Under the pieces are notes generated by a model, which was not told the origin of the DNA, made no database searches, and saw nothing but the letters and a program-made list of their open reading frames with translations. Both the position numbers and the translations under genes were made by a program. A DNA stretch of 53,753 nucleotides, from NCBI RefSeq assembly GCF_000719475.1, contig NZ_JOGO01000045.1, forward strand, positions 1 through 53,753, in the 5' to 3' direction. Positions 28,869-33,970 of this stretch are shown here, piece after piece. Position 1 is the stretch's first letter. Each line of letters starts with the position of its first letter. The stretch comes from Streptomyces sp. NRRL F-5630 (GTDB lineage Bacteria > Actinomycetota > Actinomycetes > Streptomycetales > Streptomycetaceae).

Positions 28869-31598
28869 TCATTGCGCGCTGGTCGAAGGCGCGTTGTCAC
28901 TGCCGGGCTGGGAACCGGGTGGCATCACCGTCTGACCGGGCTCCCCCGGGCTTACGGGGCCCTCGTGACCGCCTGCCTCCGGGCCGTCGGCCAAGGGCCC
29001 GTCGTGGCCCCCACCCCCCGGACCCGTCCCGGGGATATCCAGGCTCCCTCGTCCCGAACCGACCTCGGAGGCTTCCTGGTCGCCCCGTACGGGACGGACT
29101 TCGCGGCTGTCCCGACGCTCGCTCTCCGAACCGGACCGCGGAGACTTGTGGCTGCCCCGGGTCTTACGGCTGCCTCCTCCCGAGCCGGGCGCGGACGCCT
29201 CATGGCTCCCCTGCTCCGTACCGGCTGCAAGGCCCGCGACTCCGTTGACCGCAGGGCCCTGTGGCGATGCGTCCGAGCCGGGAACCTCCGGGCACGACCC
29301 GCGGTCCGCCACGGGGGACGTGGTCCGGTCCACGACTTCCCCGCGGTCCGCCTTCCGTTCCTCTCCCCCGGGCCATTTGAGAGCATCCGAGGACTGGGGT
29401 CCGGGGTGCTCTCGCCCGGTCAAGGACGAGCGGTCGACCGCGGCACGACGATCGTTCGCCCCAGGCGTCCCGGCTTCCCGTTCCCTCTGCTCCTGCTCCC
29501 GTTCCCCCGAGTGCGCCCCTTCACAGCCGGGGGTCGATACCGCCAGGCGTCGCCGGGCCCGCGTGTACGCCTCCTTCTCCGCGCCTTCCCTCCGCTTCAC
29601 CACGCTGCGGCCGAGGCGTCCCGGCGCGGCTCCGCCAGGCCGCCCGGCGTCACGTCGCCGCGTCGCCGGCCGAGCGGCGGAGGCCGTACGAGCGGTGGAA
29701 CGGGTACGGCGTCGTGCGCTGCCGCGGCCGTCGGTCGGCCCGCGTTCGGCTTCCTTCTCACCGGGACCACCCTCCGATGTCCCATCGGCGTGGGACGGCG
29801 TTCCTCCCTCCGGTTCACCCGCAGGAGCCGGTCCGGTGCCGTCCGGACGGGAGTCGTTGGGTGCCGAGGCCGGCCCGGCGGGGGGACGACGCATGGCCGA
29901 GTGCTTCGTGCGCCCGCGCAACTGCTGTCGGATCTCGTCAGGTTCGACCCCCTTGTCGAATGCCTGGTCCAAGAGCCCCGCGAACACGTAGTGGGGATCG
30001 ACGGCGAGCGCGAGGTGCAGGGCCAGCCGGGCCTCGCTCTCGTCTCCGAGTGCCCAGGCCGTCCAGCCGACGAGCGAGAGCGGCGCCGCCGCGTGTTCCT
30101 TGTACGAGAGGACACAACGACGCGCGAGAGCACGCCACAGGCGACGCGCGGCGTCGGGGAAGGCGAGAAAACTCGCCGCCTCGTCCCGGGCCTCCCGGTC
30201 CTGGAGACCAATGACGAGCCGCGCGGCCTCCTCATGGGTAAGCGCTTCATCGTCCGCGAGGTCTGCCTCCAGCGGGTCCGAGGGAACAGGCGCCGTCGCA
30301 AGACGAGTGAGCACGTTGTCAAGCAGCCCGACCGTCCCACGCCGGATCTTGAGCACGTTCTCCCGGCTGCTCAGAATCTGCGGCAGGAGGTCGAGGGCGA
30401 CGAGGTCGAGAATCCGCTCCTGGGCTTGGGCGGCGGCGGTGCACCACGGCAGCAATCGGCTCTCCAGGCGCGCGGCGGGGAGCGGACTCGGCATGCCCTC
30501 GTAGACAGAGGTCGCGGCAAGGACCGAGCTTCCAGCCGGCAGCAGGGGGGCGCCCGTCTGTTCCTGCCCTTCCAGCGGGGTCACGTAGGACCAGGAGCGC
30601 CCGGTGGAGACGCACAGTGCTTCGACGACCGGGGCGTCGAAGTGACCGCAGGCGACACGAATGTGCTGGGCGAGGGGACGCAGTCGCTCGCGCACCTCCC
30701 CGGCACCGGCCGGCGGCACGGCGCCGGGCCTGGCCTCTTCCGGCTCCTGGAAGAGGAAGGCGATGACACCATTGGGCGGGGAGCCGCCGCGCCGCTTCCG
30801 CAAGAAACTGGCCACTCCCCTGCCGGGGCCGTCTCCGGGGGAGTCGAGAAGCATCGTGGCTACCCGCTCGGCGGCCTGCGGCCACTGCCCCGGATCGTCC
30901 GGGATACGCAGGGCCGTTCGTCGCCCGAGCCGTCCCCGCTCGCCGTGCAGTGCGAGCAGGACCACGCTGTTGCCGGGCACATAGCCCAGGAGGTAGGGCA
31001 AGGAGTCCGCGAGTTCCGCGAGGGACTTCAGCGAGATCGCCTGCCGTTCCGGCAGCCTTTTACCGGAGGACTCGGCTGCGGGCTGGTCAGCGGAAGGATC
31101 GGCACGGAAAGCCGCGAAAGGAAGGGGTTCGTCCCACGGGTGTGCAGGGTCGCTCTCGGGTGGGCGTCGCTGAGCGGGGACTCGGGGATTGTGGAGTAGC
31201 GAGTCCGGAGAGCCCTCGCCCGCGCGCTGGGCAGGAATAACGGTGTCGGGATCCTGCATCGCCGCAGGGTGGCTCGGCGGTGGGCCGGAGAGGTTTGGTG
31301 TGGCGGCGGGGGCGGACGGCCGGGGCTCAGGCAGGGCGGAAGGCTGTTCCGGACGGACGGGGTGGTCGTGGGCCGCGACGGGTGCGGGGCCCTGAGCAGG
31401 GCCGGAGAGCCGATCCCGAGCAACGTCACAGGGCTGCGGAGGGGACGGGTCCCGGGCTTCGAGGCTGCTCTGCGGCTCAGCGGGCGGGACCGGGGGCCGG
31501 CTGCCCGAGGGAGTGACGGACTGCGCGGTGAGAGGGGTGGGGGGCTGCCCAGTGGAAGGCGTGACGGACGGGTCGGATGCGTCGTTGCGATGCGTCAT
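28869..31598 (-). CDS. DUF4192 protein with long disordered flanks
   Basis: A 909-aa protein of unknown function. Residues 1 to about 180 are Pro/Ser/Ala-rich disordered sequence. A DUF4192 domain follows to about 600 (SLKSLAELADSLPYLLGYVP, GNSVVLLALHGERGRLG, WALGDESEARLALHLALAVD, YVFAGLLDQAFDKGVEPDEI). The last 300 residues are very Gly/Ser/Arg/Glu-rich, without fold. DUF4192 proteins are common in actinobacteria and usually much shorter. The start is ATG at 31598 with no good Shine-Dalgarno; upstream CACAGT at 7-nt spacing would suit a leaderless mRNA. The gene is divergent from the recQ fusion, sharing a 206-bp region with a striking inverted repeat. Confidence 0.82.
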   Translation of the reverse strand: MTHRNDASDPSVTPSTGQPPTPLTAQSVTPSGSRPPVPPAEPQSSLEARDPSPPQPCDVARDRLSGPAQGPAPVAAHDHPVRPEQPSALPEPRPSAPAATPNLSGPPPSHPAAMQDPDTVIPAQRAGEGSPDSLLHNPRVPAQRRPPESDPAHPWDEPLPFAAFRADPSADQPAAESSGKRLPERQAISLKSLAELADSLPYLLGYVPGNSVVLLALHGERGRLGRRTALRIPDDPGQWPQAAERVATMLLDSPGDGPGRGVASFLRKRRGGSPPNGVIAFLFQEPEEARPGAVPPAGAGEVRERLRPLAQHIRVACGHFDAPVVEALCVSTGRSWSYVTPLEGQEQTGAPLLPAGSSVLAATSVYEGMPSPLPAARLESRLLPWCTAAAQAQERILDLVALDLLPQILSSRENVLKIRRGTVGLLDNVLTRLATAPVPSDPLEADLADDEALTHEEAARLVIGLQDREARDEAASFLAFPDAARRLWRALARRCVLSYKEHAAAPLSLVGWTAWALGDESEARLALHLALAVDPHYVFAGLLDQAFDKGVEPDEIRQQLRGRTKHSAMRRPPAGPASAPNDSRPDGTGPAPAGEPEGGTPSHADGTSEGGPGEKEAERGPTDGRGSARRRTRSTARTASAARPATRRRDAGRPGGAAPGRLGRSVVKRREGAEKEAYTRARRRLAVSTPGCEGAHSGEREQEQREREAGTPGANDRRAAVDRSSLTGREHPGPQSSDALKWPGGEERKADRGEVVDRTTSPVADRGSCPEVPGSDASPQGPAVNGVAGLAAGTEQGSHEASAPGSGGGSRKTRGSHKSPRSGSESERRDSREVRPVRGDQEASEVGSGRGSLDIPGTGPGGGGHDGPLADGPEAGGHEGPVSPGEPGQTVMPPGSQPGSDNAPSTSAQ

Positions 31599-31641
31599 GG
31601 AGAGCACTGTGCACGGAAAAGCAAAATTCTTCCTCGCCCCC

Positions 31642-31752
31642 CTGTGGATAACCCCTCGTATTGAGTTTTGTCGCACACGCTCTTTATCTGATCTGCTAAA
31701 TAATCTTGAACTCGTTCATCCGATCATCTCCCGATGAGGGGGTTATCCACAG
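31642..31752. promoter_or_regulatory. Inverted repeat with two TTATCCACA DnaA boxes
   Basis: CTGTGGATAACCCC (31642-31655) and its exact reverse complement (31739-31752) flank an AT-rich 83-bp spacer. Each 14-bp arm contains TTATCCACA, the strict bacterial DnaA-box sequence (Streptomyces oriC boxes are mostly TTGTCCACA, with this as a variant). The arms sit 43 bp and 52 bp upstream of the two divergent start codons. Confidence 0.8.
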
Positions 31753-31804
31753 CTCGTGCAGCCCTCGTTCGCCGGTTGTCGGTCTCATCGGGTTGCATGG
31801 GGGC

Positions 31805-33970
31805 ATGAACGACGAAGACCTCCGCACCACTGCCGACGCAGTCCTCGCCCAGCTGGTGGGCGATTCCACCGGGCGGGCACGGCTGCGCGAGGACCAGTGG
31901 CAGGCCATCGAAGCGCTGGTCGTGCACCACCGCAGGGCCCTGGTCGTGCAGCGCACGGGCTGGGGAAAATCCGCCGTGTACTTCGTGGCCACGGCACTCA
32001 TCAGGCGGCGCGGTGGTGGCCCGACCGTCATCGTCTCCCCGCTGCTCGCCCTCATGCGCAACCAGGTGGAGGCGGCCGCCGCCGCGGGGATCAAAGCACG
32101 CACGATCAATTCGGCGAACCGGGAGGAGTGGGACGCGGTCCAGGAGGAGATCCGCGCCGGAGAGGTCGACGTGCTCCTCGTCAGCCCTGAGCGCCTCAAC
32201 CATCCGGTGTTCCGCGACGAGGTCCTTCCGAGCCTTACTGCGGCGACGGGCCTGCTCGTGGTCGACGAGGCGCACTGCATCTCCGACTGGGGACACGATT
32301 TCCGCCCGGACTACCGGCGGCTGCGCACCATGCTCGCCGAGCTGCCGACGGGGGTGCCCGTGCTGGCCACTACGGCGACGGCGAACGCCCGCGTGACCGC
32401 GGACGTGGCGGAGCAGCTCGGGACCGGCGGTGACGGGGACGGTGCTCTCCTACTGCGTGGTCCGCTCGACCGCGAGAGTCTCAGCCTTGGCGTACTGCCC
32501 CTGCCCGATGCCGCTCACCGGCTCGCATGGCTCGCGGATCACCTCGACGAGCTGCCGGGGTCGGGCATCATCTACACCCTGACCGTCGCCACGGCCGAGG
32601 AAGTGGCCGCGTACCTGCGCCAGCGAGGCCACGAAGTGACGTCGTACACCGGGCGCACGGAGAACGCCGACCGGCTGGAGGCGGAGCAGGCCCTCCTCGC
32701 CAACCGCGTGAAAGCCCTCGTGGCGACCTCCGCCCTGGGTATGGGCTTCGACAAGCCGGACCTCGGCTTCGTGGTTCATCTCGGTGCGCCCTCCTCTCCC
32801 ATCGCCTACTACCAGCAAGTGGGTCGCGCGGGGCGCGGGGTGGAACATGCCGAGGTACTGCTCCTGCCGGGCAAGGAGGACGAGGCGATCTGGAAGTACT
32901 TCTCCTCTCTCGCCTTCCCTCCGGAGGAGCAGGTACGACGGACCCTCGACGTCCTCGCCGGGTCCTCACGGCCGATGTCGACTCAGGCCCTCGAACCCCT
33001 CGTCGATCTGCGGCGCACCAGGCTGGAAGCCATGCTGAAGGTGCTCGACGTGGACGGGGCGGTCCGGAAGGAGAAGGGCGGCTGGACCGCTACCGATCAG
33101 CCCTGGGCGTACGACGCGGAGCGGTACGCCTGGGTGGCCGGGCAGCGGGCGATCGAACAGCAGGCGATGCGTGACTATGTGACGAGCACCGGGTGCCGGA
33201 TGGAGTTCCTGCGTCGTGCGCTCGACGACGAGGCCGCCGCGCCCTGTGGCCGGTGCGACAACTGCGCCGGCTCGCGTTTCAGCACGGAGGTGTCCCCCGT
33301 CGCTCTGACCTCCGCGCACGGCGAGCTGGAGCGCCCCGGGGTAGACGTGGAGCCGCGCCGTATGTGGCCGACCGGTCTGGAGGCCGTCGGCGTCACCCTC
33401 AAGGGGCGCATTCCGGCCTCGCAGCGGGCCGAAACCGGACGGGCGCTTGGCCGGCTCTCGGACATCGGCTGGGGGAACAGGCTCCGCCCCCTCCTCGGCC
33501 CCGACGCACCCGACGGGCCGGTGCCCGACGACGTGTTCCAAGCGGTGGTGGCGGTACTCGCCGACTGGGCCAAGGGACCTGGCGGGTGGGCTTTCGGCGA
33601 GAAGGAAGCGCTCACACGCCCGGTCGGCGTGGTAACGCTTCCTTCCCGAACTCACCCCGAATTGGTGGACTCGCTGGGCAATCGTGTCGCCCGGATCGGT
33701 CAACTGCCCTTCCTCGGCGGACTCGCCCTACGAGAGGACGACGAGCCAAGGCGCGCGCACCGGGGGAACAGCGCGCAGCGACTCCTCTCCCTGCGGGGAG
33801 CCCTCGCCGTGCCCACCCCGCTCGCCGAGGCGCTGACAAAGCATCCCGGCCCGGTCCTTCTCGTGGACGACTTCACGGACACGGGCTGGACGATCGCCGT
33901 GGCAGCCGGACTGCTCAAGGAGGCGGGCGCGAAGGAGGTACTGCCACTGGTGCTCGGGGTCCAGGGCTGA
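31805..33970 (+). CDS. RecQ-family ATP-dependent helicase fused to a phosphoribosyltransferase-type domain
   Basis: A 721-aa protein. The RecQ core has Walker A at 51-56 (TGWGKS, preceded by QR), the DEAH box at 154-157 (VVDEAHCISDWGHDFRP), TATAN motif III, GMGFDKPDL and QQVGRAGR motif VI. A Cys cluster (TGCRMEFL, APCGRCDNC) gives the RecQ zinc site. After a winged-helix-like stretch, the C-terminus carries a PRPP-loop-like motif, VLLVDDFTDTGWT, at 684-696, as in type I phosphoribosyltransferases. The helicase should unwind DNA; the second domain's job is unknown. The ATG at 31805 is chosen because homology starts there. It is divergent from the DUF4192 gene. Confidence 0.92.
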   Translation: MNDEDLRTTADAVLAQLVGDSTGRARLREDQWQAIEALVVHHRRALVVQRTGWGKSAVYFVATALIRRRGGGPTVIVSPLLALMRNQVEAAAAAGIKARTINSANREEWDAVQEEIRAGEVDVLLVSPERLNHPVFRDEVLPSLTAATGLLVVDEAHCISDWGHDFRPDYRRLRTMLAELPTGVPVLATTATANARVTADVAEQLGTGGDGDGALLLRGPLDRESLSLGVLPLPDAAHRLAWLADHLDELPGSGIIYTLTVATAEEVAAYLRQRGHEVTSYTGRTENADRLEAEQALLANRVKALVATSALGMGFDKPDLGFVVHLGAPSSPIAYYQQVGRAGRGVEHAEVLLLPGKEDEAIWKYFSSLAFPPEEQVRRTLDVLAGSSRPMSTQALEPLVDLRRTRLEAMLKVLDVDGAVRKEKGGWTATDQPWAYDAERYAWVAGQRAIEQQAMRDYVTSTGCRMEFLRRALDDEAAAPCGRCDNCAGSRFSTEVSPVALTSAHGELERPGVDVEPRRMWPTGLEAVGVTLKGRIPASQRAETGRALGRLSDIGWGNRLRPLLGPDAPDGPVPDDVFQAVVAVLADWAKGPGGWAFGEKEALTRPVGVVTLPSRTHPELVDSLGNRVARIGQLPFLGGLALREDDEPRRAHRGNSAQRLLSLRGALAVPTPLAEALTKHPGPVLLVDDFTDTGWTIAVAAGLLKEAGAKEVLPLVLGVQG

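Follow-up and report, generated by a model that had tools for sequence, protein, structure and literature searches.

Inverted DnaA-type boxes between divergent DUF4192 and recQ genes of Streptomyces suggest a promoter element of the DUF4192 gene

The DNA analysed here, called the window, is a stretch of 53,753 bp from Streptomyces sp. NRRL F-5630 in which two genes diverge from a short intergenic region. The minus strand carries a DUF4192 gene (28,869 to 31,598) for a protein of 909 aa that matches Pfam PF13830 with 183.2 bits, above the cut-off, and the plus strand carries the gene of a RecQ-family helicase of 721 aa (recQ; 31,805 to 33,970) that matches TIGR00614 above cut-off. The initial annotation had described the helicase as fused to a phosphoribosyltransferase domain. 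The RecQ part of this description stands, whereas the match to the fused C-terminal domain is weak, with 19.3 bits under a Pfam cut-off of 26.3. The DUF4192 protein of the window is unusually long; the nine relatives that we measured have 382 to 579 aa.

The intergenic region contains a perfect inverted repeat. The 14-bp sequence CTGTGGATAACCCC lies at 31,642 to 31,655 and its exact reverse complement at 31,739 to 31,752; the arms are 83 bp apart, and the repeat ends at the arms on both sides. They stand 43 bp from the DUF4192 start (31,598) and 52 bp from the recQ start (31,805). Both include the nonamer TTATCCACA: the DUF4192-proximal arm, on the minus strand, has it at 31,643 to 31,651 in the DUF4192 sense direction, beginning 53 nt before the ATG, and the distal arm, on the plus strand at the recQ side, has it as an inverted box at 31,743 to 31,751, so that the start-to-start spacing of the pair is 100 bp. 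These are the only exact copies of TTATCCACA in the whole window (0.04 expected from base composition). The spacer (31,656 to 31,738), the length of which varies among relatives, has a GC content of 42%, compared with 71% for the window, and just 0.02% of the 83-mers of the window are equally AT-rich. The repeat, its distances and its AT-rich spacer had been part of the initial annotation and were reproduced exactly on re-checking. Genome-wide (7.06 Mb in 237 contigs), the 14-mer occurs three times, in the two arms and at C107:1006, where the copy fits the pattern of a separate repeat family.

The repeat had been proposed as a link between DnaA and the helicase. We compared the 80 best-scoring of 588 helicase relatives, a set that is biased by this selection, and sorted them by the position of DUF4192: in 48 loci (group A) it is divergent from and adjoins recQ, in 10 (group B) it follows recQ on the same strand, 21 unclassified loci had no DUF4192 match in the sorting comparison, and one (L038) was cut at its start. 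Of the 48 divergent loci, 39 carried the box TTATCCACA in the 300 bp that precede recQ, where it was the most common 9-mer, while 500 permuted 9-mers occurred on average in 0.014 loci (maximum 4). In group B, where the recQ promoter has no adjacent DUF4192 gene, no recQ promoter had the box (0/10). The DUF4192 promoters of the same ten loci all contained TTRTCCACA, as TTATCCACA in nine and as TTGTCCACA in one. Three of the 21 unclassified relatives had TTATCCACA; one initially unclassified locus, L073, proved to possess DUF4192 after all, with a box at −48, and in L005 and L009 the DNA fetched has box-like pairs and did not match DUF4192.

The same association was obtained with two patterns searched in 295 genomes of the genus. 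A gene-independent pattern of two boxes in the same inverted order, 0 to 4 bp apart, matched one site in each of 47 genomes, and the reversed pattern matched none. All of the 30 tight-pair loci fetched from these 47 lie directly upstream of DUF4192; within the DNA fetched, recQ was not matched in three of them and is not divergent in two. The second pattern, which describes the architecture as the box, a GTC near the start, and CATGA, matched in 216 of the 295 genomes (reversed pattern: 0), and among 30 such loci that were fetched, DUF4192 follows directly in 28 and recQ is divergent in 24. Of the two exceptions, L302 is cut by a contig end, and L311 shows neither gene, its genome holding a second architecture match outside the 30 loci. 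The three Streptomyces sets (helicase relatives, tight pairs, architecture) overlap in species, and their counts are therefore not independent. A search of a plasmid collection with the intergenic DNA gave no match. Since the boxes stay with DUF4192 when recQ is elsewhere, missing or not divergent, they belong to the DUF4192 promoter, and we rejected the helicase link as the main reading. This suggests that the two arms are DnaA boxes of the DUF4192 promoter and not of the helicase.

The position of the DUF4192-side box is almost constant. It starts 48 to 50 nt before the ATG in 39 of 48 group A, 9 of 10 group B and 29 of 30 tight-pair loci, and 60 to 61 nt before it in 4, 1 and 0 loci, respectively, with no box at the expected place in 5, 0 and 1, in a count that picks the in-frame ATG best fitting 49 or 60.5 and thereby favours those distances. 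When the distance was instead taken to the first in-frame ATG that follows the last box, the mode was unchanged, with some outliers. L156 was scored as a miss in the distance count, yet its genome (G058) matches the architecture pattern. Among the 82 loci of the three sets with a box, the proximal word is TTATCCACA in 75, TTGTCCACA in 6 and TTTTCCACA in 1. In 78 loci with the box at 48 to 50 nt, a GAYSGT hexamer occupies −12 to −7, and we infer that it is the −10-like hexamer of a leaderless DUF4192 promoter; a TTGACA-like −35 element is absent from the promoter consensus. The distal inverted box has no such fixed place. Start-to-start spacings range between 10 and 100 bp, and many loci have just one strict box, which disfavours a dimeric regulator on a fixed palindrome. 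The window itself is atypical: its proximal box is at −53 (−52 in the relative G010), its genome is not among the 216 with the architecture pattern, its 100-bp spacing class comprises 2 of 295 genomes, and its DUF4192 promoter does not have the conserved GAYSGT at −12 to −7.

Sampling 89 genomes of the class showed DUF4192 in 70. For the class survey we used 70 of 86 listed places, dropping second pieces, partial sequences and further copies, and excluded four loci from the family of the window, leaving 66. In the 300 bp upstream of the DUF4192 domain, YYNTCCACA was found in sense orientation in 36 of the 66 loci and in antisense in 3; in the first 300 nt inside the domain, the numbers were 2 and 0, and permuted cores occurred on average in 0.86 loci (maximum 5). 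In 38 of the 66 loci, representing 21 of 29 families, an in-frame start follows 59 to 62 nt after the beginning of a box with the TCCACA core; the other 28 do not have a box at this distance. Control windows of four nt at other offsets contained a mean of 3.9 loci; the counts were higher at 57, where the window overlaps (20), at 87 to 90, the site of tandem second boxes (12 to 13), and at 74 to 76 (10 to 11). A box at −60 or −61 also occurs in L068 to L070 (including Kitasatospora indigofera) and in the Actinacidiphila locus L053. Outside the family of the window, the boxes are often tandem, in the same orientation and 28 to 32 bp apart (e.g. L177, L185, L186, L165, L200 and L218), compared with the inverted pair in Streptomyces. 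Relative to the start, the box is shifted by 12 bp in the other families compared with Streptomyces, and we therefore rejected the box as a plain −35 element. This shift would correspond to about one helical turn, which suits a protein that touches RNA polymerase. To summarize, the initial finding of DnaA-type boxes is real, with a match to the consensus form and a conservation far above chance; it is stronger than first described in its class-wide conservation and was wrong about the gene concerned.

The recQ gene has a promoter of another kind. Upstream of its start, at 31,776 to 31,798 on the plus strand, TTGTCGGTCTC is followed after 6 bp by TTGCAT, an arrangement that we assign provisionally to the PafBC/RecA-NDp-like type. 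Among 79 relatives examined, 68 could be anchored, and 62 of these have TGTC at one offset from a TTGCAT-like hexamer. The recQ promoter consensus TTGTCAGTGCCATCGGGTTGCATGG resembles the RecA-NDp consensus. Promoters of this type have a TTGTC motif at −26 and a −10 element at constant spacing; recQ has a TTGTCNGTG-like motif at this position and a −10 hexamer, and no −35 element. The motif position agrees with that given for PafBC, −26, in the available part of one study (PMC11804915). According to excerpts of two others, recA and SCO6735 of S. coelicolor have RecA-NDp promoters (PMC5087735), and the PafBC motif of M. smegmatis did not emerge as conserved in S. venezuelae in an initial search (PMC9380542). 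The recQ transcript likely has a leaderless start, and the conserved PafBC-like promoter makes it more likely that recQ is tied to DNA damage than to DnaA.

Which protein reads the DUF4192 box? The preferred actinomycete DnaA box is given as TT(G/C)TCCACA, and the E. coli form as TTATCCACA, in the available part of PMC4285127; the Streptomyces boxes, TTATCCACA or TTGTCCACA, agree with the DnaA consensus of the lineage. The oriC of the window's genome, downstream of dnaA, contains the same extended word, e.g. GTTGTCCACAG and GTTATCCACAGG, which makes DnaA a likely ligand. The base following NNNTCCACA is G in a fraction of 0.66 of 103 sites pooled from 29 dnaA loci and in 0.74 of 43 sites upstream of DUF4192; this comparison is rough, as the segments, taken from 29 of 30 genomes, reach at most 1500 bp beyond the DnaA C-terminal domain, may miss part of oriC and include contigs that end early. 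Four single-contig genomes have 15 to 25 copies of TTATCCACA each; 7 to 9 of these fall within a single stretch of 150 kb, where 0.25 to 0.44 would be expected. DnaA is therefore the best candidate to bind the box of the DUF4192 promoter, as judged from these sequence comparisons.

We favour, with somewhat more confidence than doubt, the interpretation that the repeat is a DnaA-box pair of the DUF4192 promoter and that DnaA at the proximal box controls DUF4192 transcription. Bound to the proximal box, DnaA would sit immediately upstream of a promoter with a −10-like hexamer and no recognisable −35 element, and would touch RNA polymerase and activate the leaderless DUF4192 transcript, repression being less likely. 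A second DnaA on the distal box could stabilise the first. Excerpts of PMC13270200 describe a weak domain I dimer in actinomycete DnaA and a domain II of more than 200 residues in S. lividans DnaA, with the proposal that this domain connects box clusters far from each other. Dimerisation through domain I, together with the length of domain II, might let the spacing of the boxes vary. DUF4192 expression would thereby follow the amount or the nucleotide state of DnaA. The control is probably direct, with activation likelier than repression, and the near-fixed spacing to the start favours such direct control over titration.

Alternatively, a dedicated transcription factor and not DnaA may read (Y)(Y)NTCCACAG, the likeness to a DnaA box being coincidental. 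Outside Streptomyces the first two bases of the box are often CC or TC, which corresponds to a weak DnaA box and keeps another factor with the same word as a rival. The common core there, GTCCACAG, with its degenerate first bases, its sense orientation and its frequent tandem arrangement at 28 to 32 bp, forms an ordered site of the kind that is usual, we presume, for a dedicated activator. On the other hand, 81 of the 82 proximal sites in Streptomyces (TTATCCACA and TTGTCCACA) are known DnaA-box forms (available part of PMC4285127), the word recurs with the same flanking G downstream of dnaA, and in four genomes it is concentrated in one stretch; we consider a dedicated factor unlikely, while giving it real weight.

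The initial annotation raised two further readings. The boxes could titrate DnaA away from oriC in the manner of E. coli datA (according to excerpts) or S. coelicolor D78, with transcription unaffected. Here, too, strong DnaA boxes lie outside oriC, two of them in close proximity, and the S. coelicolor clusters D78, H24 and H69 are titration or inactivation loci, with D78-type clusters outside oriC altering initiation in Streptomyces. A sink, however, requires neither a single gene nor a fixed distance to a start codon nor a shift by one turn between families; many loci have a single strict box, and, whereas D78-type clusters lie near oriC, the DUF4192 site in four single-contig genomes is separated by 1.7 to 2.6 Mb from the cluster densest in TTATCCACA (confirmed as oriC in the window's genome, G000, alone). 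The boxes are tied to one gene and its start. We regard titration as improbable. Still more improbable is the co-control of recQ and DUF4192 by DnaA. One site could serve both divergent promoters, and the recQ-side arm is 52 bp from the recQ start, but the recQ promoter is kept without any box in all ten loci in which DUF4192 is not adjacent, the recQ-side arm is the variable one, and boxes remain where recQ was not found.

By sequence, the DUF4192 protein had only weak matches in the PDB, the best (E 0.01) being the TPR-type chaperone Acl4. With Foldseek, the full-length model had no match under E 0.001, while the N-terminal domain alone had matches under this threshold, and its predicted model shows an MPN (RadC-like) fold. 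The catalytic motif of RadC/JAMM proteins is HxH...SxxD. Among 21 aligned DUF4192 sequences, we found no conserved HxH and no invariant histidine; one histidine, His46, is near-invariant. DUF4192 differs from RadC and other MPN (JAMM) proteins in its low identity to them (7 to 12%) and in its additional TPR-like C-terminal half. The protein is thus predicted to combine a TPR-like half with an N-terminal domain that resembles RadC and lacks the two catalytic histidines.

DnaA is well studied as a transcription factor in E. coli, Bacillus and Caulobacter. Excerpts of PMC8203912 name E. coli nrdAB, B. subtilis sda and C. crescentus ftsZ, mipZ and gcrA as targets, report that DnaA can activate nrdAB by stabilising RNA polymerase, and mention dnaA autoregulation as the sole DnaA-controlled case in actinomycetes. 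As at these promoters, DUF4192 has DnaA boxes in its promoter region, and here the box keeps its place at this single gene in relative after relative; it differs in being an uncharacterised actinomycete gene, recognised here from sequence, with a near-fixed box distance across many families. In titles and abstracts, with most subscription papers outside the scope of the search, no description of DUF4192 control through DnaA boxes was found. A DnaA-box promoter is a known kind of switch, and DUF4192 as its target appears new to the literature searched, in the parts available. The protein is common in the class and is named in one paper of that literature, and the near-fixed DnaA-type box provides one testable target and a first functional clue. 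As a tentative extension, which we think may well not hold in full, DUF4192 could be a DnaA target throughout the actinomycete class. In this view, the protein would be a non-catalytic adaptor that unites a RadC fold with a TPR-like half and acts back on replication or repair, and DnaA would turn its gene on from a box that precedes the leaderless start by four to six helical turns. If so, the initiator would have in DUF4192 an output that is conserved among actinomycetes.

Other DnaA-type boxes were observed in these genomes. In G000, a dispersed intergenic palindromic element has TGTGGAYAA and TTRTCCACA boxes that flank a TCACTC/GAGTGA-type hairpin at a distance of exactly 70 or 71 bp from each other (contigs C3, C6, C11, C13, C24, C33, C43, C46, C56, C65, C68, C100 and C105; e.g. 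L117, L119 and L123), and it also occurs in G010 (e.g. L116 and L118). With both boxes, it was found in 15 copies in G000, 6 in G010 and none in the other 59 of 61 genomes searched; the half-pattern gave 36 and 13 matches, respectively, and none in two controls. This element accounts for much of the 54 copies of TTATCCACA in G000, a number well above the 15 to 25 of four other genomes, and it could titrate DnaA. We rejected the window pair as a mobile element or a member of this family, which has another spacing and the central repeat and was seen in 2 of 61 genomes. In five genomes, the region densest in boxes includes a convergent TTATCCACA pair at a distance of 33 or 42 to 43 bp (G000, C16:13144-13195; G005, 3767285; G171, 3529039; G225, 3606775; G013, 4526183), with homologous neighbours at least for the G000 and G005 sites; this pair is perhaps one of the known oriC-proximal clusters. 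Further TTATCCACA sites with homologous neighbouring ORFs in three genomes each (L096/L261/L264 and L092/L268/L270) are possible additional conserved DnaA-box loci.
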